The notes: generated from the letters alone by a model not told the origin. DNA of 34,183 nt from Acidobacteriota bacterium (GCA_003152095.1 PLZI01000036.1:210-34392); one strand, 5' to 3'. Shown: positions 17,425 to 34,183, numbered from the stretch's first letter. Made by a program: numbers and translations.

Positions 17425-18516
17425 TTACCGGACCGCGGCCTCGAGAATCGAGAGCGTGCCGGCATCTCCGTCCAGCTCGGCCATGACGCCGAGCGGGAGC
17501 GTCGCCTTGTCGGGGACGTGTCCGAAGACGAGGTTCGCGACGACGGGAATGCCGAGCTTGCCGAGGCGGTCCTTGCAGACCTCCTGCCAGGTCCACGTCC
17601 CCATGCCCGCGAAGCTCGGCTTGTAGTCGCCCGGCGCGCAGTGCGCGAACTTCCCGAGAGCAACGCCGGCGAGACCCGAGAGCTTGCCGGTCAGGAGGAA
17701 CTGCGTGAGCCAGCGGTCGATGCGGTACGGGTCCTCGCCGACCTCTTCGAGGAAGAGGATGCGGCCCTTGAGCTCCGGTTCGAATGGCGTTCCGACGAGC
17801 GTCGAGAAGACGCTGATGTTGCCGCCCACGAGCCGGCCCTTGCCCTTGCCGGGCGCGAGCTTGTAGATCCAGTTCTCGCGGTCCACGAAGACCCCCTGCG
17901 GCGGGCCCTTTGGCGCCGGCGGCTCGGCGATGCGGCCCGCGGGCTTCGCCTCCATGAGGACCTTCTTGAACGACGCGAGCGTGTACTCCGTCTGCTGCTC
18001 GCCACCGATCGGGCCGTGGAAGGTCACGAGGCCCGTGAGGCGGTGGATCGCGTTCAGGAGCGCCGTGATGTCGCTGTACCCGCAGATGATCTTCGGGTTC
18101 TTCTTGATCGTCTCGTAGTCGAGGAGCGGAAGGATGCGCGAGGCGCCATACCCGCCGCGCAGGCAAAAGATCGCGTCGACGGAGGGGTCCGCGAAGGCGG
18201 CGTTGAGGTCGGACGCGCGGTGATCGTCCGGACCCGCGAGGTAGTACGTCGTCTCCCCCGCATGCGGGAAGAGCTTGGCCTTGAAGCCGAGCGCCTTCAC
18301 AATCTCGACCGCGATCTCGTTGTCGATGAGGCCCCAGCCAGGGGACGACGGAGCGACGAGCGCGACGGTCATCCCGGGCTGGAGCGCCTTCGGAAAAACG
18401 GGCTCGGGCGGCTTCTCGGCATACTTCTGGAGCGCGGCCTGCGCGGAAAGCGGGAAACCGGCGATGAGGGACGCGAACGAAACTTCCTCGAGAAACGTGC
18501 GTCGGCTGGTCGTCAT
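17425..18516 (-). CDS. LD-carboxypeptidase (peptidase S66 family)
   Basis: This 363-residue serine carboxypeptidase of the LdcA/MccF fold removes the terminal D-Ala from murein tetrapeptides during cell-wall recycling. The catalytic residues are visible: Ser148 in CGYSDITAL, Glu257 in ILFLEEVGEDPYRID and His333 in VFGHVPDK; the oxyanion segment CLRGGYGASRILPLLD is also present. The N-terminus TTSRRTFLEE followed by a hydrophobic stretch resembles a twin-arginine signal, so the enzyme is probably periplasmic, unlike the usual cytoplasmic LdcA. ATG 18516 lies 7 bases after a TAGAAT box that includes the upstream permease stop codon. It sits within 5 kb of NagZ- and NamZ-type genes on the other strand, which suits a murein-recycling role. 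Confidence 0.88.
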   Translation of the reverse strand: MTTSRRTFLEEVSFASLIAGFPLSAQAALQKYAEKPPEPVFPKALQPGMTVALVAPSSPGWGLIDNEIAVEIVKALGFKAKLFPHAGETTYYLAGPDDHRASDLNAAFADPSVDAIFCLRGGYGASRILPLLDYETIKKNPKIICGYSDITALLNAIHRLTGLVTFHGPIGGEQQTEYTLASFKKVLMEAKPAGRIAEPPAPKGPPQGVFVDRENWIYKLAPGKGKGRLVGGNISVFSTLVGTPFEPELKGRILFLEEVGEDPYRIDRWLTQFLLTGKLSGLAGVALGKFAHCAPGDYKPSFAGMGTWTWQEVCKDRLGKLGIPVVANLVFGHVPDKATLPLGVMAELDGDAGTLSILEAAVR

Positions 18517-22395: not shown

Positions 22396-23706
22396 ATGCG
22401 CGATCCGACGCTCCACGAGGGCCTCCAGGCCCTGCGCGACGACCGCGCCTTCGATCCCGCCGCCGTCTCCGCCGTCGGCCGCCTCGCGTCGGAATTCGGC
22501 ACGCCGCTCTACGTCTACGACAAGGCGGCGATCACGGGCCGGTTCCGGACGTTCCGCGACGCCTTCGCGGCGCGCTTCCCGAAGCTGCGCGTCCACTACG
22601 CGCTCAAGGCGAATACGAACGGCGCGCTCGTGGCGCTTCTCCGCGCCGAGGGGGCCGCCGCCGAAGTCGTCTCGCTGGGCGAGATCCTCGCGGCGCTGAG
22701 GGCCGGATTCCGTGGCAACGAGATCCTCTTCACGAGCTCCTCGAAGGGGCCCGACGAGATCTCGAAGGCCGTCGAGATCGGCGCCGTCGTGAACGTGGAC
22801 TCGCGCGACGAGCTCGAGCAGGTCGCCGCGCTCGCGGAGGCCGCGGGCCGCAGAGCGCGGATCTCGTTCCGGATCAACCCGGGCGTCGACCCGCACACCC
22901 TCCATCACATCAACACGGGCATCGCCGAGTCGAAGTTCGGACTCCATCTCGACGGGGGCCTGGCGCGGGCCGCATACGCGCGCGCGCAGGAGCTTCCCTC
23001 GGTCGACATCGTGGGCGTGCATTGCCACCTCGGCTCGCAGATCACGGAAACCGACGGCTACGTCGTGACGGCCCGGAAGATGCTCGCCTTCGTGCGCGAG
23101 CTCGAGGAGGCCCTCGGAGTCCGTCTTCTTTTCGTGGATCTCGGCGGCGGCCTCGGCGTTCCCTACCACGACGGCGAAGCGGGCCTCGCTCCGGAAGCTC
23201 TGGCCGCCGCGCTCGAGCCGCTCTGGAAAGAGCTCACGAAGCGCCTCGGGTACGAGCTCGAGCTTTGGATGGAGCCCGGGCGCTTCTTCGTGGCGCCCTC
23301 TGGCTTCCTTCTGGCGCGCGTGAACTCCGTAAAGGAAACTCCGCTCAAGGTCTTCGTGAACGTGAACGCGGGCTCGAACACGCTCCTCCGCCCCGCGATG
23401 TACGGGGCTCACCACCGCGCGCGCGTCGTGGGCCGCACGGGAGCGCCCGAGACCCTCGACATCGCCGGCGACGTCTGCGAGACAGGCGACATCCTCGCCG
23501 CCGAGCGCCGGCTCCCCCGGCCCGAAGCCGGCGACTTCGTCGTCTTCCTCGACGCGGGCGCTTACGGCTTCTCGATGGCGTCGACGTACAACGCCCGGCC
23601 GCTTCCAGCCGAGGTTCTCGTCGACGGCGACACGGCCGCGCTCATCCGCCGGCGCGGCACGGTCGAGGATCTCTTCCGGGACGAGGTCCTTCCCCCCTCG
23701 AGGTGA
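22396..23706 (+). CDS. lysA: Diaminopimelate decarboxylase
   Basis: This PLP enzyme converts meso-diaminopimelate to L-lysine, the last step of lysine synthesis. The 436-residue product has the PLP lysine Lys71 in HYALKANTNG, the HCHLGSQI motif, the phosphate-binding/substrate loop EPGRFFVAPSG, and the catalytic Cys in GDVCETGDILA. The C-terminal DAGAYGFSMASTYNARPLPAEVLVDG segment completes the set. The ATG at 22396 lies 9 bases after a CAGAAT box. Only 5 bases separate its stop from the NagZ lipoprotein gene, so it is the first gene of the murein-hydrolase operon. Meso-DAP freed from murein peptides would be a direct substrate for LysA if it reaches the cytoplasm. Confidence 0.95.
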   Translation: MRDPTLHEGLQALRDDRAFDPAAVSAVGRLASEFGTPLYVYDKAAITGRFRTFRDAFAARFPKLRVHYALKANTNGALVALLRAEGAAAEVVSLGEILAALRAGFRGNEILFTSSSKGPDEISKAVEIGAVVNVDSRDELEQVAALAEAAGRRARISFRINPGVDPHTLHHINTGIAESKFGLHLDGGLARAAYARAQELPSVDIVGVHCHLGSQITETDGYVVTARKMLAFVRELEEALGVRLLFVDLGGGLGVPYHDGEAGLAPEALAAALEPLWKELTKRLGYELELWMEPGRFFVAPSGFLLARVNSVKETPLKVFVNVNAGSNTLLRPAMYGAHHRARVVGRTGAPETLDIAGDVCETGDILAAERRLPRPEAGDFVVFLDAGAYGFSMASTYNARPLPAEVLVDGDTAALIRRRGTVEDLFRDEVLPPSR

Positions 23707-23711
23707 CGCTC

Positions 23712-25556
23712 ATGCTCAAAACCGTCCGGCTGCTCGCGGTCCTCGCTTCGGCGGCGCTGCTCGCGTCCTGCGCGGGAGGCAACCCGTTCCCGCCCGTGAC
23801 GATCGACTTCAGCCAGCTCGCACCGGACCTTCCGCACGACGTCTCGATGCCCCTCGACGAAAAGATCGGCCAGCTCTTCGTCGTGCCGGCGCGCGGCGTC
23901 TACATGAGCGAAGACTCGAAGGACTTCCAGACGCTGCGCCACCACGTCGTCGACAATCGCGTCGGCGGCGTGATCCTGTTCCGCTCGAACGTGTATGAGG
24001 CCGCCGTCCTCGTCGGGAAGCTTCAGGAAGCCGCGAAGGTGCCGCTCCTCGTCTCGGCCGACCTCGAGGCGGGCCTCGGGATGCGCTTCGACGACGTGAC
24101 GTACGGTCCCTGGGCGATGGCGATCGCCGCGACCGGCGACCCGGCGCTGGCCGAGAAGCGCGCGTTCGCCACGGCCCGCGAGGCCCGGGCGATCGGCATC
24201 GCGCAGGTCTTCGCGCCCGTCGCGGACGTGAACGTGAACCCCGACAATCCCGTCATCAACGTGCGGAGCTTCGGCGAGGACCCGGACCAAGTCTCTCGCT
24301 ATGTCGTGGCCACGGTGAAGGGCCTGCAGGACGGCGGCGTCCTCGCGACACCCAAGCACTTCCCCGGGCACGGGGACACGGCCGTGGACTCTCACCTGTC
24401 GCTGCCCATCCTCCCGGTCACGAGGGCGCGGCTCGAGTCCGTCGAGCTCGTGCCCTTCCGCAGCGCCGTGAAGGCCGGGGCGGGTTCCGTCATGGTGGCG
24501 CACCTCTCGGTCCCCGCGCTCGACGACACCCCCGCGCCGCCGCTGCCGAACGCGAAAGGCGAAGCCGGCGCGAACGGCGTCCCGGAGCTGGAAACGAAGG
24601 GCACGATGCCGACGACGCTCTCCGGCCCCACCGTGACGGGCCTCCTCCGCAAGGAGCTGGGCTTCACGGGCCTCGTCGTGACCGACGCCATGACGATGGG
24701 CGGCATCACGTCGCATTTCACGGCCGGCGAGGCCGCTGTACGCGCGATTCTCGCGGGGTCGGATCAGGTCCTCATGTCGGCCGATACGGACGCCGCGATC
24801 GCCGCCGTGCGTGAAGCGGTGAGGTCGGGCCGGATCACCGAGGCGCGTCTCGACGAGTCGGTGAAGCGAATCCTCGACTGCAAGAAGAAGCTGAAGCTCG
24901 ACGAGAATCGGATCCCCTTCGTGGCGCGCCTCGCGAAGATCGTCGACACGCTGCCCATCCAGGCGCTCGAAGCCGAGATCGCGCGCCGCTCACTCACGCT
25001 CGTGCGCGAGCAACCGGGCGCGCTGCCGCTCCAAAAGGCCGCGAAGCTGCTTTCTTTCGTCGTCGCCGACGAGGCCTCGCTGAACGGCCCCACGGGCCCG
25101 CTCGCGGCGGAGCTCAAGGCGCGCGTCCCGTCCGTGAAGACCGTGCGACTCGACCCCCGCTCGACACCCGAGGAGACGAAGGCCGCCGTCGACGCCGCGA
25201 GAGACGCCGACGTGGTCCTCGTGTCGCTCTTCGTGAGAACGCGTTCGGGGCAAGGGAAGATCAGCGTGCCCGAGGCGGGCCGAAACGCGCTCGCGCAAGT
25301 CCTCGCGCTCGGCAAACCCGTCGTGACCGTTTCCTTTGGAAGCCCGTATCTCCTGCGCGATTTCCCCGACCTCCCGACCTATCTCTGCGCCTGGGGCGGA
25401 CAGGATGTCGCGCAGACGGCCGCCGTTCAGGCGCTGTTCGGCGAGGCGGCGATCGGCGGCAAGCTCCCGATCACGATCCCCGGCCTCGCGAAGCGCGGGG
25501 ACGGCATCGCAAAGGCGGCGTCCGCAGAACCCCCTTCCAACACGAAGACCCGTTGA
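23712..25556 (+). CDS. nagZ: Beta-N-acetylglucosaminidase NagZ-type GH3 lipoprotein
   Basis: This is a 614-residue glycoside hydrolase family 3 enzyme that removes non-reducing GlcNAc from muropeptides. An N-terminal lipobox (LLASC, Cys20) marks it as a lipoprotein, as in Bacillus subtilis NagZ and unlike cytoplasmic enterobacterial NagZ. The NagZ signature is intact: KHFPGHGDTAVDSH at 215-228, with the catalytic His/Asp dyad, and the nucleophile Asp325 in VVTDAMTMGGI. The C-terminal GH3 second domain (about 395-610) contains VVLVSLFVRTRSGQGKISV and ITIPG. An extra Pro/Gly/Glu-rich insert lies at about 272-300. ATG 23712 follows the lysA stop by 5 bases; the frame is open far upstream only as a shadow of lysA. 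The name is from motif and context. Confidence 0.9.
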   Translation: MLKTVRLLAVLASAALLASCAGGNPFPPVTIDFSQLAPDLPHDVSMPLDEKIGQLFVVPARGVYMSEDSKDFQTLRHHVVDNRVGGVILFRSNVYEAAVLVGKLQEAAKVPLLVSADLEAGLGMRFDDVTYGPWAMAIAATGDPALAEKRAFATAREARAIGIAQVFAPVADVNVNPDNPVINVRSFGEDPDQVSRYVVATVKGLQDGGVLATPKHFPGHGDTAVDSHLSLPILPVTRARLESVELVPFRSAVKAGAGSVMVAHLSVPALDDTPAPPLPNAKGEAGANGVPELETKGTMPTTLSGPTVTGLLRKELGFTGLVVTDAMTMGGITSHFTAGEAAVRAILAGSDQVLMSADTDAAIAAVREAVRSGRITEARLDESVKRILDCKKKLKLDENRIPFVARLAKIVDTLPIQALEAEIARRSLTLVREQPGALPLQKAAKLLSFVVADEASLNGPTGPLAAELKARVPSVKTVRLDPRSTPEETKAAVDAARDADVVLVSLFVRTRSGQGKISVPEAGRNALAQVLALGKPVVTVSFGSPYLLRDFPDLPTYLCAWGGQDVAQTAAVQALFGEAAIGGKLPITIPGLAKRGDGIAKAASAEPPSNTKTR

Positions 25557-25563
25557 GGTGAAA

Positions 25564-27423
25564 ATGAAAGAAACGACGAAAAAACTGCTTAGAAAAGGGA
25601 TCGGGAGGCCGGCGGCGTGCCTCGCCCTCGCGTCGCTGATCGCAGTCGCCGCTCTGGCCCAACCGACGCCCTCTTCACCTTCTAAGAAATCTTCGTCCTC
25701 GTCCGATGTCGACGAGGCGCGGGCGCTCTTCGAGAAGAACATCGCCGCCATCCAGCGCCGCGACCGCGTGGCGTACCTCTCCTGCTACCTCGACTCGGAG
25801 AGCCTCGTGCGCACGTCGCCCGGCGGGCTGGTCCTTGGCTTCGCGGAGTTCGAAAAGCAGGCCGGTACGAGGTGGCCGGACACGCTCGAGGCCGACGACC
25901 TCGCGCTCGTGCCCGTGCGCGACGGGCTCGTTTACGCGACGTATCGCTACCGCGTACGGTACGGCGGGGACGAGCACGCGGGCCTCTCCGAGCGGCTCTT
26001 CGTGAAAACGCCGAAGGGCTGGAGGATCACGATGACCTCCGCCTTCGACGCCCCTCCCGGCACGCCCCCACCGCCGCGCGCCTTCACGGGCGCGACGCTT
26101 CTCGACGGCACCGGCGCGCCGCCCGTGAAGGACGCCGTCGTCCTCGTGCGGAGTGGAAAGATCGAATGCGCGGGTACCCGCGCGGCCTGCCCTGTCCCTT
26201 CCGGCGTCGACGTGACCGACCTCAGCGGCGCCTTCCTCGCACCCGGCCTCATCGACGCGCACGTCCACTTCGCGCAGACGGGCTGGGCCGACGGCCGGCC
26301 CGACGCATTCGACGTGCGCGCGAAGCACCCGTACGAGGACGTCCAGAAGGAGTTGCGCGGCCATCCCGACCGCTTTTTTCGCTCGTACGTCTGCTCCGGC
26401 GTCACGAGCGTCTTCGACGTGGGCGGGTACGCGTGGTCGCTGGACCTCCCGGCGCGCGCGGAGAACGACACGCTCGCGCCCCGCGTCCGCGCCGCAGGGC
26501 CGCTCCTCTCCACGATCGACTTCTGGCTCAACCTCCCCGCCGAGCGCCAGTTCATCTTTCTCAAGGACGAAGAGGCCGCGAAGACGGGCGTCGCGTACCT
26601 CGCGTCGCGCGGTGCGCAGGCGGTCAAGGTCTGGTACATCGTGACGGCGGACCGTCCCGTCGAGGCGTCCGAGGCGGCCGTCCTCGCGGCGGGCGCCGAG
26701 GCGAAGAAGAAGGGCTTGCCGCTCATCGTCCACGCCACCGGCCTCGCGGAGGCGAAGGTCGCCCTCCGGGCCGGGGCGTCGCTCCTCGTCCACGGCGTCA
26801 TGGACAAGCCGGTCGATGACGAGTTCCTCAGCCTCGCGAAGAAGAGCGGGGCGATCTACAACCCGACGCTCGTCGTGATCGAGGGCTACGTCGCGATCGC
26901 GAAGGCCGCCGCCGCGGGCACGGCCACGCCGTTCGACGACCCGAACGGTTGTGTGGACCCGTCGACGCGTGCCCGCCTGGCGGCCACTCCGGAGATCGAG
27001 GCGGCGAGCGTCGCGTCGAAGGTGCGCGACCGCGAGGTCCGCACGGCCGAGCGCAAGGCTCTCGGCCTCGCGAACCTCAAGCGCGTGCGCGACGCCGGCA
27101 TTCCGATCGCCATGGGCACCGACGCGGGCAACCCGGGCACGCTCCATGGCCCCTCCGTGTACGCCGAAATGGAAGCCATGCAGGCTGCGGGATTGACGCC
27201 CATGGAGGTCCTCGTGGCCTCGACGAGGGGGGGCAGCCGCGCGCTCTCCCGCGAGAAGGAGATCGGCACCGTGGAGAAGGGCAAGCTCGCCGACCTCGTC
27301 GTCTTCGCGAAAGACCCCCTGGCCGACATCGCGAACGCCCGTACCGTCAAAGGCGTCGTGCGCGGCGGCGTCTACCGCACGGGCGACGAGCTGCGCGCCA
27401 TCGTCGCCGCGGAAGGCAAATGA
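25564..27423 (+). CDS. Exported amidohydrolase with N-terminal NTF2/SnoaL-like domain
   Basis: This 619-residue protein has a signal peptide (1-32) and a Ser/Lys linker (SSPSKKSSSSS, 37-47). An NTF2-like (DUF4440 type) domain follows at about 48-162 (ARALFEKNIAAIQRRDRVAYLSCY, then FVKTPKGWRITM). The rest is an imidazolonepropionase-like amidohydrolase. Its metal ligands are visible: His233 and His235 in GLIDAHVHF, Lys355 in AVKVWYI, His390 in IVHATG, His410 in LVHGVMD and Asp520 in MGTDAGNPG. Such enzymes hydrolyse dipeptides, N-acyl amino acids or similar amides. Lying between NagZ and AmiE-NamZ genes, it may cleave murein-derived peptides; that is inference. ATG 25564 is 7 bases after the nagZ stop, with GAGG just upstream. 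A copy of the dispersed 12-mer is in the linker. Confidence 0.87.
   Translation: MKETTKKLLRKGIGRPAACLALASLIAVAALAQPTPSSPSKKSSSSSDVDEARALFEKNIAAIQRRDRVAYLSCYLDSESLVRTSPGGLVLGFAEFEKQAGTRWPDTLEADDLALVPVRDGLVYATYRYRVRYGGDEHAGLSERLFVKTPKGWRITMTSAFDAPPGTPPPPRAFTGATLLDGTGAPPVKDAVVLVRSGKIECAGTRAACPVPSGVDVTDLSGAFLAPGLIDAHVHFAQTGWADGRPDAFDVRAKHPYEDVQKELRGHPDRFFRSYVCSGVTSVFDVGGYAWSLDLPARAENDTLAPRVRAAGPLLSTIDFWLNLPAERQFIFLKDEEAAKTGVAYLASRGAQAVKVWYIVTADRPVEASEAAVLAAGAEAKKKGLPLIVHATGLAEAKVALRAGASLLVHGVMDKPVDDEFLSLAKKSGAIYNPTLVVIEGYVAIAKAAAAGTATPFDDPNGCVDPSTRARLAATPEIEAASVASKVRDREVRTAERKALGLANLKRVRDAGIPIAMGTDAGNPGTLHGPSVYAEMEAMQAAGLTPMEVLVASTRGGSRALSREKEIGTVEKGKLADLVVFAKDPLADIANARTVKGVVRGGVYRTGDELRAIVAAEGK
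25678..25689 (+). repeat. Dispersed 12-mer CCTTCTAAGAAA, copy 4
   Basis: CCTTCTAAGAAA here encodes PSKK in the linker after the signal peptide of the amidohydrolase. It extends to 18 identical bases with the copy at 6651-6668. A degenerate inverted partner (CTTAGAA, 25588-25594) lies 84 bases upstream, echoing the spacing of the pair at 20291-20382. Confidence 0.65.
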
Positions 27424-29831
27424 TCTCGCTGCTTCTGGCACTCGCGGCCGCTCCGCCGTCCGCGTCTGGGATGTCGGCCGACCGCCTGAATCGCATCGAT
27501 TCGGTCGTCGAAGAGTCGATCCGGAACAAGGAGTGTCCCGGCGCCGTCGTCGTGGTGGGCCGGCACGGAAAAGTCGTCTTCGAAAAAGCGTATGGCAACC
27601 GCGCCGTCGTCCCGTCCGTCGAGCCGATGACGCTGGACACTATCTTCGACCTTGCGTCGCTCACGAAGGTCGTGGCGACGACGACGAGCGTGATGACGCT
27701 CGTCGAGAGCGGAAGGATCCGGCTCCAGGATCGCGTCGCGAAGCTCATCCCCGAGTTCGTCTCAGGCGGGGGTGAGAGGGATCAGGTCACGATCGAAGAG
27801 CTGCTCACGCACCGGGCGGGCCTGGCCGCTGACGACCCGATGGCTCTCTATTTCGGAACCGCGCAGGAGATCTTTGAAAGGAAATACAGGCAGCCTCTCG
27901 TTGCGGCTCCTGGGTCTCGTTTCCTGTATTCGGATGTGGGGTTCGAGGTGCTCGGCGAGGTCGTGCGCCGCGTCTCGTCTCTTCCACTCGAAGAATTCGC
28001 GCGTCAGCGCGTCTTCGCGCCTCTCGGGATGAACGAGACCGAGTTTCGACCCGGTGGAATCGGAAGGTTGCCCCTGTCCCGCATCGCGCCCACCGAGAGG
28101 ATCAACGGGCAAATCCGCCGCGGCGAGGTGCACGACCCGCGCGCGTACGCCCTCGGCGGCGTCGCGGGCCACGCGGGTCTCTTCGCGACGGCGGACGACC
28201 TTGCGAAGTTCTGCGCGGCGATGCTGAAAGGTGGCGGCGGGGTTCTGTCGCCGGCGGGCGTCGCGTCCACGATGCGGCCGCGCTTTTTCGGCGACGGGAA
28301 CCTGCGCGGCCTCGGCTGGGACGTCGGGACCGGCTTCTCCTCGAACCGTGGCGACCTCTTCCCGCTCGGGTCCGTCGGACACACGGGCTGGACAGGGACT
28401 TCGATGTGGCTCGACCCCGCGACGGACACCTTCGTGATCCTCCTGACGAACCGCAACCATCCCGACGAGTCTGGCAATGTCATCCCTCTCCGCGGAAAGG
28501 TCGCGACGATCGTCGCGTCCGCGATCACGGACGTGAAGCCCGAAGAGGTTCGAATGGCTTCGGAATGGACCGCGCTGCTCGCGGCGGTTGGTTCCACGCG
28601 GCCGGGCCCGAAGAGCACGGGCGCGCCTTCGGCGCGTGCTTCGAGTGGAAGAGAGGCTGCGGCTGCGCCGGCGCGCGTCGTGGGGCAGGTCCGGCCCGGC
28701 GTCGACCTACTCGAAGAATCTTCTTTCAAGGCGCTCGCGGGAATGCGAGTTGCCCTCCTGACGAACCACACCGGCCTCACGCGCGATGGTCGCTCCACGA
28801 TCGACGTGCTCAATTCTCCAAAGGCGCGTGCAGCGGGTGTGACTCTTTCGAAGCTCTTTTCCCCCGAGCACGGGATCCGCGGGGCGCTGGACGAGAGGGT
28901 CTCCGACTCCGTCGACGAGAAGACGGGCCTTCCCGTGCGGTCGCTCTACGGCGACACGCCGGAGTCGCGCCGGCCGTCGGCTGGCGATCTCGCGGGCATC
29001 GACGCGGTTGTCGTCGATCTGCAGGACGCGGGCTGCCGCTTCTACACGTATCTCGCGTCGATGGGCTACGTGCTCGAGGAGGCCGCAAAAGCGCACGTGA
29101 AGGTCTTCGTTCTCGACCGCCCGAACCCGATCCGCGCGGACGTGGTCGAGGGTCCCCCGGCAGACGACGACGCACTCTCCTTCGTCGCGTACCACGCCGT
29201 CCCGATTCGCACGGGGATGACGATCGGCGAGCTCGCGACGCTCTACGACGCCGAAAAGAAGATCGGTGCGGACCTGACCGTCGTGAAGATGACGGGCTAT
29301 GCGCGCGACCTCTGGTACGACGAGACGGGTCTCATCTGGGTGGATCCGTCGCCGAACCTCCGCTCCGTCACGGAGGCGGCGCTCTATCCGGGAATCGGGA
29401 TCCTCGAGACGACGAACGTCTCCGTCGGGCGCGGCACCGACTCCCCCTTCGAGGTCTTCGGCGCGCCGTGGATGGACGGCCCGCGCGTCGCGGCCACGCT
29501 GAACGCCCGCGGCATCGCCGGCGTGCGCTTCACGCCGATCCGCTTCAAGCCGGCGTCGTCCGTCTTCGAGGATGAGATCTGCTCCGGCGTGAGGATCACG
29601 CTCGTCGGCCGGCAGGCGCTGAACGCCGTCGCCCTCGGCCTCCATGTCGCGACCGCGCTTCGCGACCTGCACCCGAAGGAGTGGAACGCCGAGAAGCTGA
29701 ACCGCCTCCTCGTGAGCCGCGCCGCTCTCGCCCGCTTTCAACGCGGAGAGACGGCCGGCGAGATCACGGGTGCCTGGGCGGCGGGGACGATGGAGTTCGA
29801 GAAGAGGCGGGCGGCGTACCTCCTGTACTGA
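27420..29831 (+). CDS. AmiE-type serine amidase fused to NamZ-type (DUF1343, GH171) exo-muramidase
   Basis: This 803-residue two-enzyme protein has a probable short signal peptide (MISLLLALAAAPPSASG). Residues 20-380 are a class C beta-lactamase-like serine hydrolase with the nucleophile motif S80-L-T-K83, Tyr170 in YSD, and HTG at 321-323. This family includes the murein amidase AmiE (YbbE). A Pro/Ala/Ser-rich linker (about 390-425) leads to a full-length DUF1343 domain (about 426-803): RVALLTNHTGLTRDGRST, LFSPEHGIRG, VVDLQDAGCRFYTYLASM, VFVLDRPNPI, NVSVGRGTDSPFEVFGAPW. DUF1343 is NamZ (YbbC), which removes MurNAc exolytically. The ATGA overlap with the amidohydrolase gene shows coupling. 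The predicted activities come from the families, not measurement. Confidence 0.9.
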   Translation: MISLLLALAAAPPSASGMSADRLNRIDSVVEESIRNKECPGAVVVVGRHGKVVFEKAYGNRAVVPSVEPMTLDTIFDLASLTKVVATTTSVMTLVESGRIRLQDRVAKLIPEFVSGGGERDQVTIEELLTHRAGLAADDPMALYFGTAQEIFERKYRQPLVAAPGSRFLYSDVGFEVLGEVVRRVSSLPLEEFARQRVFAPLGMNETEFRPGGIGRLPLSRIAPTERINGQIRRGEVHDPRAYALGGVAGHAGLFATADDLAKFCAAMLKGGGGVLSPAGVASTMRPRFFGDGNLRGLGWDVGTGFSSNRGDLFPLGSVGHTGWTGTSMWLDPATDTFVILLTNRNHPDESGNVIPLRGKVATIVASAITDVKPEEVRMASEWTALLAAVGSTRPGPKSTGAPSARASSGREAAAAPARVVGQVRPGVDLLEESSFKALAGMRVALLTNHTGLTRDGRSTIDVLNSPKARAAGVTLSKLFSPEHGIRGALDERVSDSVDEKTGLPVRSLYGDTPESRRPSAGDLAGIDAVVVDLQDAGCRFYTYLASMGYVLEEAAKAHVKVFVLDRPNPIRADVVEGPPADDDALSFVAYHAVPIRTGMTIGELATLYDAEKKIGADLTVVKMTGYARDLWYDETGLIWVDPSPNLRSVTEAALYPGIGILETTNVSVGRGTDSPFEVFGAPWMDGPRVAATLNARGIAGVRFTPIRFKPASSVFEDEICSGVRITLVGRQALNAVALGLHVATALRDLHPKEWNAEKLNRLLVSRAALARFQRGETAGEITGAWAAGTMEFEKRRAAYLLY

Positions 29832-29840
29832 TTCCGCGCG

Positions 29841-30839
29841 TCAGCGGGCCGGGAGCCTCTTCTTCTCGATCTTCACGAGTACCGTGTACTCAGGGTCGAC
29901 GAGCTGGATGATCGGAGCCTTCGCGTTCTGCGAGACGAACTGGTAGGCATCGAGCTCCGTCAGGCCCGTCGCCTCGCGCACCCAGCCCACCATCGCCTTG
30001 AACGCGACGCGGGCGGCGTCCTCGAGCGGGCGGCCGGAGCCCACGAACATGACCTCGTCCGCGTTCTCTATCTTCGGCACCGGGGTGAGCCGGCCTTTCA
30101 CGAGGTCCACGATCAGCTCGACGTTCATCGCGCCTTCGATGGCCGCACCCATGATCTCGCCGTCGCCCATCGCGAAGTGCCCGTCGCCGAACGACACGAG
30201 CCCGCCCGGGACGTTGACGCCGAGGGAGACCGTGTTGCCCGCCCTCACCTCCGGGCAGTCCATGTTGCCGCCGAAATTCCCCGGTACGATCGTCGTGCGT
30301 GCCTCGCCGCCCGCCGGCGCGACGCCGAGACAGCCGAGGAACGGCGTGAGCGGCACCTCCCACGCGAGCTTTCCGTCGCCCGACGTCGTGCGCGCGAGAT
30401 CCTTCTTCGCGTCCACCTCGTAGCGCCAGGTCGTCTCCGGAAAGTCCGGCCCGAGGATCGCCGTGCGGTCGGTGCCGACGAGCGCGCCGAAGCCCGGGGA
30501 GAACGCGGACACCGCCCACGAGCGCGCGGGCTCGAGCTTCAGGATGCGGATCGCGAGCGTGTCGCCCGGCTCGGCGCCTTCGACGTAGAACGGCCCCGTC
30601 TGCGGGTTGTCGTGCCCGGGAGCCATCACCTTCGACGGCAGGTCCGCGCGCGTCTTCACGGCGCCGTCGAAGCAGTCCTCCGTCCACGTCACGATCCGTG
30701 TGCCGGGCCGGATGCGCTGAAGAGGCTTCGCGCCCCCAAACGTATACGTGAGCTCCTCATGCTTCGGCACCCAGCGGAGGACCGATGGTGCGGAGGGAGG
30801 CGGCGCGGCGACCTGGAGGAGAAGCGCGGCGAGAATCAT
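29841..30839 (-). CDS. Acetamidase/formamidase family protein (exported)
   Basis: This 332-residue amide hydrolase of the FmdA_AmdA family begins with a signal-like stretch (MILAALLLQVAAPPPSAPS). Family segments include TWTEDCFDGAVKTRADLP, NPQTGPFYVEGAEPGDTLAIRILKL, VVPGNFGGNMDCPEVRAGNTVSLGVNVPGG (with the IVPGNFGGNMD core) and FGDGHFAMGDGEIMGAAIE, which bears the conserved His/Asp/Glu metal-site residues. It hydrolyses small amides to ammonia and carboxylate; the substrate is not known. ATG 30839 lies 7 bases after TAGGTT without a Shine-Dalgarno sequence. It converges on the AmiE-NamZ gene with 9 bases between stops. It is divergent from an amidase pseudogene, so amide metabolism may once have been shared here. 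Confidence 0.85.
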   Translation of the reverse strand: MILAALLLQVAAPPPSAPSVLRWVPKHEELTYTFGGAKPLQRIRPGTRIVTWTEDCFDGAVKTRADLPSKVMAPGHDNPQTGPFYVEGAEPGDTLAIRILKLEPARSWAVSAFSPGFGALVGTDRTAILGPDFPETTWRYEVDAKKDLARTTSGDGKLAWEVPLTPFLGCLGVAPAGGEARTTIVPGNFGGNMDCPEVRAGNTVSLGVNVPGGLVSFGDGHFAMGDGEIMGAAIEGAMNVELIVDLVKGRLTPVPKIENADEVMFVGSGRPLEDAARVAFKAMVGWVREATGLTELDAYQFVSQNAKAPIIQLVDPEYTVLVKIEKKRLPAR

Positions 30840-30846
30840 GGCCCGG

Positions 30847-30852
30847 AACCTA
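30847..30852 (-). promoter_or_regulatory. -10-like TAGGTT before the acetamidase gene
   Basis: The minus-strand TAGGTT lies 7 bases before ATG 30839 and is preceded by TGA, giving an extended -10-like context. It is the weakest of the TANNNT cases. Confidence 0.35.
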
Positions 30853-30885
30853 TCAGGCTCCGGCGCGCGCCGCGCCGAATCAAGA

Positions 30886-30891
30886 TAGATT
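30886..30891 (+). promoter_or_regulatory. -10-like TAGATT before a 3-codon minicistron and the amidase pseudogene
   Basis: TAGATT is followed by 6 bases and then ATG AAA CTC TGA (30898-30909), after which GGAGG (30911-30915) precedes the ATG at 30922. The surrounding 30878-30905 is notably AT-rich. The promoter appears intact although the gene behind it is broken. Confidence 0.45.
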
Positions 30892-30921
30892 AAACACATG
30901 AAACTCTGACGGAGGCGACAA

Positions 30922-31467
30922 ATGTCCGATCCGACCCTTTCGCCCTCGCGCCGCCTCTTCGCGAAGAGGCTCGTGCTCGCGGCGGCCGCGCCCGCCCTCG
31001 CGGGAGCCACCGCCGCCCTCGGACAGACCGCACCCTCGCCGTCTCCCGCGCCCACGCCCGTTCCCACGCCCACCCCAACGCCCGAAGCCCCCTCCTCGGC
31101 CGCGGAGGCGCTGACGGAAGTCGCGCGCATCCGACCGTCGTGACGAAACTCCGCGAGGCGGGCGCGGTCCTCATCGGGAAGCTTGCGATGGTCGAGCTCG
31201 CGGGCGGCATGGGATACAACAACGCGGACTCTTCGTTCACCGGGCCCGGGCGCACACCCTGGAACACGGACTTCTGGTCGGGCGGCTCTTCCTCGGGACC
31301 CGGCGCCGCCACGGCCCGCGCTCTCCGTTCCGAACGGCTTCGGCGAGAACGGCCTGCCCACGGCGCTCCAGTTCACGGGTCGCGCGTTCTCGGACGAGAC
31401 GCTCGTGGCGCTCGGGGCCGCCTATCAGCCCCGCACGGAGTGGCACCTTAAGAGGCCGGTTGTGTGA
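30922..31467 (+). pseudogene. Amidase (amidase-signature family) pseudogene with two internal deletions
   Basis: Three pieces of an exported amidase can be read in different frames. 30922-31143 gives a twin-arginine-like N-terminus (SPSRRLFAKRLVLAAAAPAL) and Pro/Thr linker, ending in a stop. 31140-31320 gives TVVTKLREAGAVLIGKLAMVELAGG, then FWSGGSSSGPGAATAR, the Gly/Ser-rich amidase signature. About 31320-31467 gives PALSVPNGFGENGLPTALQFTGRAFSDETLVALGAAYQ, the usual C-terminal end. Family proteins are about 450-550 residues, and only about 180 remain. The segment before the first catalytic region and most of the central fold are missing at about 31135 and 31320. GGAGGCGAC precedes the ATG. 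Either the gene decayed or the assembly lost two stretches. Confidence 0.75.
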
Positions 31468-31505
31468 GCAAGATCCATTACCATGACCGAAGGAGAGTTG
31501 AAGAG

Positions 31506-32087
31506 ATGAAGTCCACCATTCGAATCGCCGGTCTCGCTATTGTCCTGGCCGCCCTTGCGGCGTCCCCTGCCGTTGCCGGCGACGCGTTCAGCCTCGACCT
31601 CGGCGTCCACGGCGGCGTCCTGAACAGCAGGGACGGCAAGACCGGTCTCTTCGTCGGCGGCGCCCAGGTGCGCCTGCATCTGATCTGGCTCCTCGCGGCC
31701 GAGCTGCGTGGCTCCACCTACTCGGACTCGTACAACGTGTCGTCGTTCGGCAGCGTCGACGTCAAGAACACTCCGGTGCAGCTCTCGGCCATGCTGTATC
31801 TCCTGAAGTACCCGGGCTTCGGCCTCTACGTCCTCGGAGGAGGCACCTACAACGCCCTGAGGCTGGAAGGGAGCGGGAACGTCTCGGGCTCGGTCCATGA
31901 GAACAAGTGGGCCACGCACGCCGGAGCCGGCCTCGACATCAGGCTCTCGAAGTCGTTCATCCTGAACGTGGACGGACGCTACGTCTTCCTCAATGTCGAT
32001 CCGACGAACCTCCCCCCCGCCAGCTCCGGCGCCTACAAGGGCGACTACTGGACCGGAACGCTCGGACTCGACTGGAAGATTTTCTGA
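31506..32087 (+). CDS. Small outer-membrane beta-barrel protein
   Basis: This 193-residue protein has a signal peptide (MKSTIRIAGLAIVLAALAASPAVAG). About eight amphipathic strands follow, with alternating hydrophobic residues and Gly (FSLDLGVHGGVLN, GLFVGGAQVRLHL, GLYVLGGGTYNALRL, WATHAGAGLDIRLSKSFILNVDGRYVFLNV). It ends in GLDWKIF with the C-terminal Phe typical of outer-membrane barrels. Size and pattern fit the OmpA/OmpX-like OMP_b-brl group. ATG 31506 has GGAGAG 9 bases upstream; an upstream in-frame GTG at 31464 overlaps the amidase remnant and is unlikely. A structural or adhesion role is probable; nothing in the sequence names a ligand. Confidence 0.8.
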   Translation: MKSTIRIAGLAIVLAALAASPAVAGDAFSLDLGVHGGVLNSRDGKTGLFVGGAQVRLHLIWLLAAELRGSTYSDSYNVSSFGSVDVKNTPVQLSAMLYLLKYPGFGLYVLGGGTYNALRLEGSGNVSGSVHENKWATHAGAGLDIRLSKSFILNVDGRYVFLNVDPTNLPPASSGAYKGDYWTGTLGLDWKIF

Positions 32088-32097
32088 CGGCCCAACC

Positions 32098-32331
32098 GTG
32101 ATCGCCTGGCTCGTCAAACTTCCGTGGCTCGTCGTGATCGCGGCGGTCCTGACACTCGGCCTCGCGCCGTTCAACCCTCCCCACGTGTGGGAGAAGCTCG
32201 TGCTCCTGTCCCGCGGCCAGCTCACACGGCCGGTCGACTGGCTCGATTTTCTGCTGCATGGGTCCGTGTGGCTGGTTCTCGTCGCCAAAGTCGTGGCGCA
32301 TCTGCTCCAAAAGCCGGACGCAGTCGCGTAG
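32098..32331 (+). CDS. Small two-helix membrane protein (conserved 'LTRP-x-D' type)
   Basis: This 77-residue protein has a first membrane helix (WLVKLPWLVVIAAVLTLGLAPF), a conserved loop (PPHVWEKLVLLSRGQLTRPVDWLDFLLHG) and a second helix (SVWLVLVAKVVAHLL). I recall similar small proteins with the pattern GLAPF-x-P-H-x-x-EK-L followed by LTxPxDxxDxxxH, often labelled 'RND transporter' in databases although far too short to be one; this memory was not checked. The GTG start at 32098 is 10 bases after the barrel-protein stop. A possible alternative is translation only from the second helix, but the loop conservation argues for the full frame. It stands 7 bases before the MFS gene. Confidence 0.7.
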   Translation: MIAWLVKLPWLVVIAAVLTLGLAPFNPPHVWEKLVLLSRGQLTRPVDWLDFLLHGSVWLVLVAKVVAHLLQKPDAVA

Positions 32332-32338
32332 CGCGTTC

Positions 32339-33613
32339 ATGCGCACCTTTGCCTCCGTCCGCCTGCGCATCTGGGGCGTGCTCGCGCTCGTGTACGTCGT
32401 CTCGTACTTCCATCGCATCGCGCCCGCCGTCCTCGCGAAGGACCTCATGGCGAGCTTCGCGGCGACGGGCGTCGAGGTCGCGACGATGGCGGCGCTGTAC
32501 CTCTACGCGTTCGCCGCGATGCAGTTCGTCGTGGGCGCCGCCGTGGACGCGTGGGGGCCGCGGCGCGCCGTCACGGCGGGCGCGCTGATGATGGCGGCGG
32601 GCGGAGCGGTTTTCGCGGCCGCGCGCGCCCTGCCCGTCGCGTACGGAGCGCGCGTCGCCGTGGGCATGGGCGCTTCCGTCGTGTTCATCGGAATGCTCAA
32701 GCAGGTGGGCGCGTGGTGGAGGCCGGACGAGTTCGGCACGTGGTCGGGCCTCACGCAGGTGGCCGGAAATCTCGGCGGGCTCCTCGCGGCGGCGCCGCTG
32801 GCGCTCCTCGTCGCCGCCCTCGGCTGGCGCGCGACATTCGGCGGCGTGGCCTTGCTGTCGCTCGTCCTCGCGGGCCTCTGCCTCGCCCTCGTGCGAGACC
32901 GGCCCGAGGACGCGGGCTTTCTGCCACCCGTGCCGCGCGGAGCGGTCCCCCGCGTCTCGGTGGCGGAGGGGTATCGCACCGTGTTTGGCAACCGGAAGAC
33001 GTGGCCCATGTTCTTCGTCTTCTTCTGCCAGTATGGGACGTATCTCTCCTTCTCCGGCCTCTGGGCGGTCCCGTGGATGCGTGACGTCTACGGAATGACG
33101 GCGAAAGAATCCGCGGAAATCGTGTCCCTCGTCGGCATCGGCATCGTCCTCGGCGCACCGGCGGCCGGCTTCCTCTCCGACAAGGTCTTCCGGTCGCGAC
33201 GAGTCCCCTATGTCTTGTTCACGCTCGTCTACACGGCTGTCTGGGCCTGCATCTGCGTTCCTTCCGCCGGGCCGCCCCGCGCCTTGCTCGGGCCGCTCTG
33301 CTTCCTCCTGGGCCTCGCGGCGAGCTGCTTCACGCTCACGTGGGCCCTCGCGCGCGAGGTGAATCCGCCGCGCTTCAGCGGCATCGCGACGGCCACGGTG
33401 AACGCCGGGGGCTTCCTTGGCGCGGCGGTGACGCAGAGCGTCCTCGGCCGCATCCTCGACGCGCACTGGCTCGGCGTCCTCGAGCACGGCGCGCGCCGCT
33501 ATCCCGTCGCGGGCTATCGCGCCGCGTTCCTCACGAACCTCGTCATGCTCGGCGTCGCATGCGTCCTCACGCTCGCGGTCACGGAGACGTTCGGAAAGCA
33601 CGCGCCGGACTGA
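32339..33613 (+). CDS. Major facilitator superfamily transporter
   Basis: This 424-residue inner-membrane protein has about 12 membrane segments in two six-helix halves. The MFS loop 2-3 motif is recognisable as DAWGPRRAVTAGAL, and the second-half counterpart as FLSDKVFRSRRVPYV. The first helix reads GVLALVYVVSYFHRIAPAVLAKDL, a start seen in the anion:cation symporter and nitrate/hexuronate-like MFS groups. The central loop (about 190-215, LVRDRPEDAGFLPPVP) is short. The transported compound cannot be assigned. ATG 32339 is 7 bases after the small membrane protein stop; no strong Shine-Dalgarno sequence is present, so translation may be coupled to the gene before it. Confidence 0.9.
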   Translation: MRTFASVRLRIWGVLALVYVVSYFHRIAPAVLAKDLMASFAATGVEVATMAALYLYAFAAMQFVVGAAVDAWGPRRAVTAGALMMAAGGAVFAAARALPVAYGARVAVGMGASVVFIGMLKQVGAWWRPDEFGTWSGLTQVAGNLGGLLAAAPLALLVAALGWRATFGGVALLSLVLAGLCLALVRDRPEDAGFLPPVPRGAVPRVSVAEGYRTVFGNRKTWPMFFVFFCQYGTYLSFSGLWAVPWMRDVYGMTAKESAEIVSLVGIGIVLGAPAAGFLSDKVFRSRRVPYVLFTLVYTAVWACICVPSAGPPRALLGPLCFLLGLAASCFTLTWALAREVNPPRFSGIATATVNAGGFLGAAVTQSVLGRILDAHWLGVLEHGARRYPVAGYRAAFLTNLVMLGVACVLTLAVTETFGKHAPD

Positions 33614-33647: not shown

Positions 33648-34183
33648 ATGACGCGACGCCCCCTTTCCCGCCGTCCGGCGGCTGTCCTCCTCGTTCTCGC
33701 GCTCCTCGCGGCGTTCGCGGCTTTCGCCGCTTCGGCAACCGACGCGCCCGTGCTGCTCGCCGCCGCTCCCACCGAGACGCCGGACGCCGCCGAGATCCGG
33801 CTCGCGCTCGCGAAGCTGAACGTCGTGGGCGGCGTCCTGTACGTCGCGGCGCACCCCGACGACGAGAACACCGCGTTTCTCGCCTGGGCCTCCCGCGAGA
33901 AGCTCGTGGACGCCGGCTACCTGTCGATGACGCGCGGTGACGGAGGCCAGAACCTCATCGGCACCGAGTCGGGCGAGCTCATGGGCGTGCTGCGCACGCA
34001 GGAGCTTCTCGCCGCGCGCCGCCTGGACGGCGCCAAACAGTTCTTTTCGCGCGCGATCGACTTCGGCTACTCGAAGAGCCCAGACGAGACGCTCGCGATC
34101 TGGGGCAAGGAACAGATCCTCGCTGATACCGTACGGGTCATTCGCACGTTCCGGCCGGACGTGATCGTCACGCGCTTCCCGAC
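33648..34183 (+). CDS. PIG-L family deacetylase (3' partial)
   Basis: This is the beginning of a zinc-dependent N-acetyl-sugar deacetylase of the PIG-L/LmbE family; the window ends inside it. The 178 visible residues include a signal peptide (RRPAAVLLVLALLAAFAAFAAS) and the metal-binding motif AHPDDEN at about residues 72-78. These are followed by SMTRGDGGQNLIGTESGELMGVLRTQELLAARRLDG, characteristic of the long exported PIG-L group of bacteria. FRPDVIVTRFP near the edge is the next conserved strand. The start ATG 33648 lies 6 bases after TAGAAT. Substrates could be GlcNAc-containing glycans, which would suit a strain breaking down murein, but that link is speculative. Confidence 0.9.
   Translation, partial: MTRRPLSRRPAAVLLVLALLAAFAAFAASATDAPVLLAAAPTETPDAAEIRLALAKLNVVGGVLYVAAHPDDENTAFLAWASREKLVDAGYLSMTRGDGGQNLIGTESGELMGVLRTQELLAARRLDGAKQFFSRAIDFGYSKSPDETLAIWGKEQILADTVRVIRTFRPDVIVTRFP

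Follow-up and report, generated by a model that had tools for sequence, protein, structure and literature searches.

Does a run of four co-directional genes in an Acidobacteriota bacterium form part of a murein-salvage pathway, and is the fused enzyme that it encodes special to this genome? The window analysed here is a whole stretch of 34,183 nt from this bacterium, and the run occupies positions 22396-29831. It consists of lysA, a gene for a NagZ-type glycoside hydrolase family 3 (GH3) lipoprotein, a gene for an exported amidohydrolase and a gene for a protein in which an AmiE-like domain is joined to a complete NamZ (Table 1). An earlier reading, made from the sequence alone, described the genes as nearly contiguous, and the junctions read from the DNA agreed with it: the GH3 ATG lies five bases after the lysA stop, the GH3 and amidohydrolase genes are seven bases apart, and the amidohydrolase and fusion genes overlap by four bases (ATGA). 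On the present analysis, the run is best explained by a known recycling pathway, with a fusion that is widespread and not a one-off. Compared genomes are labelled G (G000 is the own genome, with C for contig) and individual loci are labelled L.

The fused AmiE-like and NamZ protein and its spread

In a Pfam search, all domains of the 803-residue product scored far above their cut-offs, which confirmed that a serine amidase-like domain and a full-length NamZ are joined in one protein. The amidase half carries the motifs SLTK, YSD and HTG, and the residues S80, K83, Y170, D172, H321 and G323 were invariant across 99-102 aligned fusions. Absence of the conserved NamZ catalytic residues would have refuted the sequence-only reading; instead, the candidate active-cleft residues E483, H484, G485, D533, R540, D566, R567, E604 and R671 were invariant across 103 fusions. 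The PEHG motif, whose glutamate (E483) we take to be catalytic, aligned with the same motif in 4k05 and 4jja. These two DUF1343 structures were the best PDB sequence matches of the C-terminal half, and class C/EstB-like esterases were those of the N-terminal half. The predicted structure of the fusion matched 4k05 (template modelling score 0.90 on the target) and the EstG/class C fold, with a disordered linker whose confidence was lowest around residues 375-421. Since the motifs of both halves are invariant in about 100 fusions, two working enzymes are favoured as far as sequence can tell, and the fusion is supported as a putative bifunctional AmiE-like amidase and NamZ (GH171) exo-beta-N-acetylmuramidase.

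Congeneric copies were 76-81% identical to the window fusion over nearly the full length, and one copy, ended by a contig end, was 86% identical; conservation at this level excludes chance or an assembly artefact as the source of the fusion. Matches were found in all 101 genomes of the same class (own included), with both halves in one stretch in at least 26. A scan of named genomes gave at least 590 matching stretches, and the 80 that were kept, all matching both halves, span Acidobacteriota, Planctomycetota, Verrucomicrobiota, Nitrospirota, Rokubacteria, Myxococcota and Pseudomonadota. Burkholderia and Cupriavidus plasmids also encode the fusion, labelled 'exo-beta-N-acetylmuramidase NamZ domain-containing protein' or 'serine hydrolase'. 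Fusions of Acidobacteriota and the other phyla, including those of Burkholderiaceae, are annotated 'NamZ domain-containing protein' or 'serine hydrolase' and share the architecture and motifs of the window protein at 39-86% identity; their neighbours vary, and otherwise they do not differ essentially. With at least seven phyla carrying it, the fusion is neither rare nor special to the own genome. No description of it was found in the literature searched, which did not cover the founding NamZ paper, and we do not claim it as unreported.

In a tree of 127 NamZ domains, all 104 fused ones fell inside one group of 107 (Shimodaira-Hasegawa-like approximate likelihood ratio test, 99). For two of the three non-fused members the cause is a contig end or a frame shift; the third, from G008, reads as a protein whose amidase half is lost. 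Stand-alone NamZ proteins encoded in these genomes, the own genome's second NamZ among them, fall outside the group. Two genomes of the same class match Acidobacteriota records (L107, L127) identically in this domain, which assigns the window to that phylum. This single well-supported group suggests that the fusion is old and was probably made once, and its holding all 104 fusions led us to reject a recent origin in the own genome. The second NamZ of the own genome (L033 9801-10907, G000:C163) lies on a different branch and has no adjoining AmiE or GH3 gene. In the Planctomycetota loci L095, L104 and L125, a second stand-alone NamZ gene directly follows the fusion.

Table 1. Genes and domains discussed, in window coordinates
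Feature	Position	Strand	Domain and motif evidence
lysA, meso-diaminopimelate decarboxylase, first gene of the run	22396..23706	+	TIGR01048, 443 bits (cut-off 298)
NagZ-type two-domain GH3 beta-N-acetylglucosaminidase, lipoprotein	23712..25556	+	PF00933 (GH3 N), 286 bits; PF01915 (GH3 C), 56 bits
Exported amidohydrolase with extra N-terminal part	25564..27423	+	PF01979, 91 bits
Fusion gene, 803 amino acids: AmiE-like domain, linker, complete NamZ	27420..29831	+	PF00144 + PF07075 + PF20732
Fusion, AmiE-like amidase domain, residues 27-353	27498..28478	+	PF00144, 237 bits; S80-x-x-K83, Y170-S-D172, H321-T-G323
Fusion, NamZ_N (Rossmann-like), residues 444-650	28749..29369	+	PF07075, 246 bits (cut-off 26.9); PEHG (E483), DLQD and LDRPNP motifs
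Fusion, NamZ_C, residues 655-803	29382..29828	+	PF20732, 146 bits (cut-off 25)
LD-carboxypeptidase (peptidase S66), N-terminus like a twin-arginine translocation signal, MTTSRRTFLEEV	17425..18516	-	PF02016 + PF17676

Probable salvage genes around the fusion and elsewhere in the genome

The assignment of the GH3 protein as a NagZ-type lipoprotein was borne out. Its N-terminus has the lipobox LLASC, it could be aligned along its full length to NagZ/YbbD of B. subtilis (3bmx; query 13-600, 6e-70), and it keeps the NagZ motifs KHFPGHGDTxVDSH (Asp-His dyad) and VTDAM (nucleophile). Its gene adjoins the fusion in G006, G012, G013, G038, L067 and L145, with GH3 before the fusion in G012 and G013.

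A link of the nearby LD-carboxypeptidase to the run had also been proposed, and in four family members its orthologue was indeed a neighbour of LysA, GH3 or the fusion. It is divergent from lysA in G004, where the fusion directly follows lysA; in G006, where lysA, a few other genes, GH3 and the fusion come in that order; and in G007, where lysA is followed by GH3. The order in G008 is LD-carboxypeptidase, sodium:solute symporter (SSS), GH3 and NamZ. In the same-genus genomes G001 and G002, lysA is followed by GH3; the fusion of G002 is found on a different contig with other neighbours. In all, lysA stands beside the fusion or GH3 in G001, G002 and G004. Conservation of gene order among relatives, a lack of which would have counted against the sequence-only reading, holds in part: the exact four-gene order is not kept in the genus (G002) and is peculiar to the own genome, and the adjacencies of GH3 with the fusion and of LysA with LdcA are kept in a looser neighbourhood, LdcA-like, LysA (divergent), NagZ and fusion, that is conserved in the family.

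The sequence-only reading advised a search for uptake, MurQ and NagA genes elsewhere in the genome, and a BadF-type kinase, MurQ and NagA were encoded in that order with 4-base overlaps at G000:C20 (L063 8376-11199). The kinase matched PF01869 with 115 bits and MurQ matched PRK05441 with 346 bits (cut-off 168). A search for AnmK gave no match in the own genome and was positive in five of 14 control genomes. A gene for a NagX/MurT-like membrane protein adjoins the three genes, and 3 kb further is an enolase-family protein closest to the N-acetyl-D-Glu racemase DgcA and L-Ala-D/L-Glu epimerases. An SSS homologue with 43% identity was found at G000:C56. The N-acetylmuramic acid (MurNAc) importer MurT of Tannerella forsythia has been placed in the sodium symporter superfamily (PMC5790795), which makes the SSS gene a reasonable candidate importer. 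NagX, a distant relative of TfMurT, has been argued to be a glucosamine acetyltransferase rather than a transporter (PMC9007349), and hence we do not name it as the MurNAc importer.

In some more distant relatives the fusion sits in runs with other genes of the proposed pathway. A Pyrinomonadaceae metagenome-assembled genome (L145) has the single run MurK-MurQ-SSS-GH3-fusion, L067 has MurQ-SSS-GH3-fusion, and L080 has SSS-MurQ-fusion-GH3-epimerase. The order is SSS-GH3-SSS-fusion with overlapping ends in L046 and a tight GH3-SSS-fusion in L045, and MurK, MurQ and SSS adjoin the fusion in the Planctomycetota loci L095 and L104. Among the 80 named loci, at least 13 had MurK or MurQ, at least 21 an SSS gene and at least 28 any pathway gene; these counts, from flanks of at most 5 kb and single queries, are lower bounds. 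Symporter genes abut or overlap their neighbours inside the NagZ-fusion runs of L046 (12394-17419), L045 (5742-7547), L145 and L067, and their products are candidate importers of MurNAc or N-acetylglucosamine (GlcNAc).

In B. subtilis, NagZ acts first, AmiE acts on the exposed MurNAc-peptide, and NamZ acts on peptide-free MurNAc. We consider it highly probable that the locus is the extracytoplasmic half of an Acidobacteriota murein (MurNAc) salvage pathway, with the order of steps taken from B. subtilis. NagZ would remove the non-reducing GlcNAc of the murein chain. The fusion would then cleave the peptide from the newly exposed MurNAc with its beta-lactamase-fold domain and free that MurNAc with the NamZ domain of the same polypeptide, the cycle being repeated along the chain. 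The amidase and muramidase may be joined because both act on one MurNAc residue. The free sugars would be imported, with the sodium symporter or the NagX/MurT-like protein as candidates; in the cytosol, the BadF/MurK-like kinase would phosphorylate, MurQ de-lactylate and NagA deacetylate them. The LD-carboxypeptidase would trim released peptides, and LysA may use the diaminopimelate.

An acetamidase/formamidase-family gene (- strand) lies between the fusion and a major facilitator superfamily (MFS) gene (window 29841-33613). The MFS gene (32258-33613) had no AmpG match in NCBIfam, and in the congener G003 (L052 904-3955) an MFS transporter gene 93% identical to it lies about 90 bases after the fusion. 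An exported PIG-L (Mca-like) deacetylase-family gene was seen at window 33648-34183 and L034 3858-6307, interrupted by an N run (assembly scaffold gap).

Alternative readings of the run

The amidohydrolase had been put forward as a new member of the murein pathway, and a survey of co-occurrence did not bear this out. Its metal-site pattern is HxH, Lys, His, His, Asp, and its nearest solved relatives are molinate hydrolase, Cc2672 and an Xaa-Pro dipeptidase. Homologues were found in five of 19 genomes (own included), most family members lacking one, and adjoin the fusion only in the own genome; in G018 and G015 they are located apart from murein genes. A role as a new pathway enzyme is thus unsupported, and from its distribution the protein is probably a lineage-specific neighbour, not a conserved part of the system. 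LysA, in turn, was not near the fusion outside the family among the relatives' loci examined. No other LysA of the genome passes the cut-off (a weaker paralogue is at C169), and the window gene is hence most likely the normal biosynthetic one. These observations speak for a murein module limited to NagZ and the fusion, close to which the LD-carboxypeptidase lies, and for LysA and the amidohydrolase being chance neighbours. However, in G004, G006 and G007 LysA still lies between the LD-carboxypeptidase and GH3 or the fusion, in G001 and G002 it precedes GH3, and the amidohydrolase is on the same contig as LysA-GH3 in G001, so that we regard chance neighbourhood as having an even chance of being correct.

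The extra N-terminal part of the amidohydrolase (about residues 50-160, window 25711-26043) looked NTF2/SnoaL-like by eye and from predicted secondary structure; a Pfam search of it gave no match at 0.001, and the structure prediction was too poor for use (predicted local distance difference test 49.5). In two congeners, a repeat protein that is missing in the window is encoded directly upstream of the amidohydrolase gene (L053 585-2810, with a CSLREAI motif; L055 3091-3831).

Another question is whether the system digests foreign murein, from necromass or prey, rather than recycling the cell's own wall. The enzymes are predicted to be exo-acting and exported, often as lipoproteins. Haloarchaea have no murein, and a Halorussus vallis plasmid (NZ_CP100002.1, L065 2506-14604) carries anmK, a peptidoglycan-recognition protein, an AmiE-like serine hydrolase, NamZ, NagZ and GH18 together; similar serine hydrolase/DUF1343 pairs are on further Halorussus and Haladaptatus plasmids. 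This plasmid set suggests that archaea scavenge bacterial walls. On the other side, B. subtilis is known to recycle its own wall with the same genes (PMC5061867), and the content of the window is neutral between the two. Digestion of foreign murein is thus a possibility to which we give a minor but real weight.

Other points weigh against the proposed salvage pathway. NagA scored 198 bits with TIGR00221, below the cut-off of 226, and MurQ was just under the TIGR00274 equivalog cut-off. The importers in the own genome (SSS at G000:C56 and the NagX/MurT-like protein) are candidates only. The N-terminus of the window fusion, MISLLLALAAAPPSASG, is a short, non-basic signal, which makes export of this copy no more than likely; in favour of export, a lipobox-like motif was found in 29 of 96 fusions, and many others have a signal-like N-terminus. 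The predicted model of the fusion had a predicted template modelling score of 0.52, too low for reading how its two active sites are placed with respect to each other. The serine beta-lactamase fold is also used by esterases and carboxypeptidases; the nearest solved folds of the N-terminal domain are EstG, family VIII esterases and class C relatives, and its nearest NCBIfam model is PBP4B (165 bits, below the cut-off of 385). That this domain is instead a D,D-carboxypeptidase, a stem D-aminopeptidase or an EstG-like esterase, coupling peptide trimming or de-esterification with the muramidase, appears unlikely, because NagZ, MurQ and MurK are frequent neighbours, which recalls the B. subtilis cluster with AmiE as its amidase, and because NamZ in B. 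subtilis requires peptide-free MurNAc, which no step other than an amidase cleavage would expose. The salvage pathway as first proposed is partly supported: families, motifs, kinase-MurQ-NagA genes and the MurK, MurQ, SSS and NagZ neighbours in relatives speak for it, and the part given to the amidohydrolase is unsupported.

Relation to known systems and significance

In B. subtilis, amiE, nagZ and ybbC (namZ) lie beside murQRP (PMC5061867). That cluster, murQ-murR-murP-amiE-nagZ-namZ, likewise encodes exported AmiE-like, NagZ and NamZ enzymes, with MurQ downstream. In the present bacterium, however, two of the enzymes are fused, the kinase, MurQ and NagA take the place of the phosphotransferase system (PTS) protein MurP, the genes of the outer and cytosolic enzymes are at separate places, and LysA and the LD-carboxypeptidase are neighbours. 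The murT-murK-murQ operon of T. forsythia is likewise a non-PTS set of transporter, kinase and MurQ without AnmK (PMC5790795, PMC7670621), whereas NagA is present here, and relatives keep NagZ and a fused amidase-muramidase together with these genes.

We tentatively propose, as a further-reaching idea that could well prove wrong, a widespread, self-contained non-PTS operon type of Acidobacteriota and Planctomycetota, MurK-MurQ-symporter-NagZ-(AmiE::NamZ), in which the symporter would be a dedicated importer of MurNAc (or of MurNAc and GlcNAc) and the ancient fusion would act processively, passing MurNAc between its sites. Of the leads, the symporter as a candidate MurNAc/GlcNAc importer is the most useful. 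Most of what is known about murein salvage comes from Firmicutes, enterobacteria and Tannerella. Our findings suggest that an ancient and common form exists in phyla of soil and water (Acidobacteriota, Planctomycetota, Verrucomicrobiota), in which two exo-enzymes are fused and a sodium symporter is the candidate importer. If this is true, the fused enzyme lends itself to asking whether joining successive steps speeds chain disassembly, and such bacteria would be able to live without a PTS when converting the necromass of other bacteria to amino sugars.

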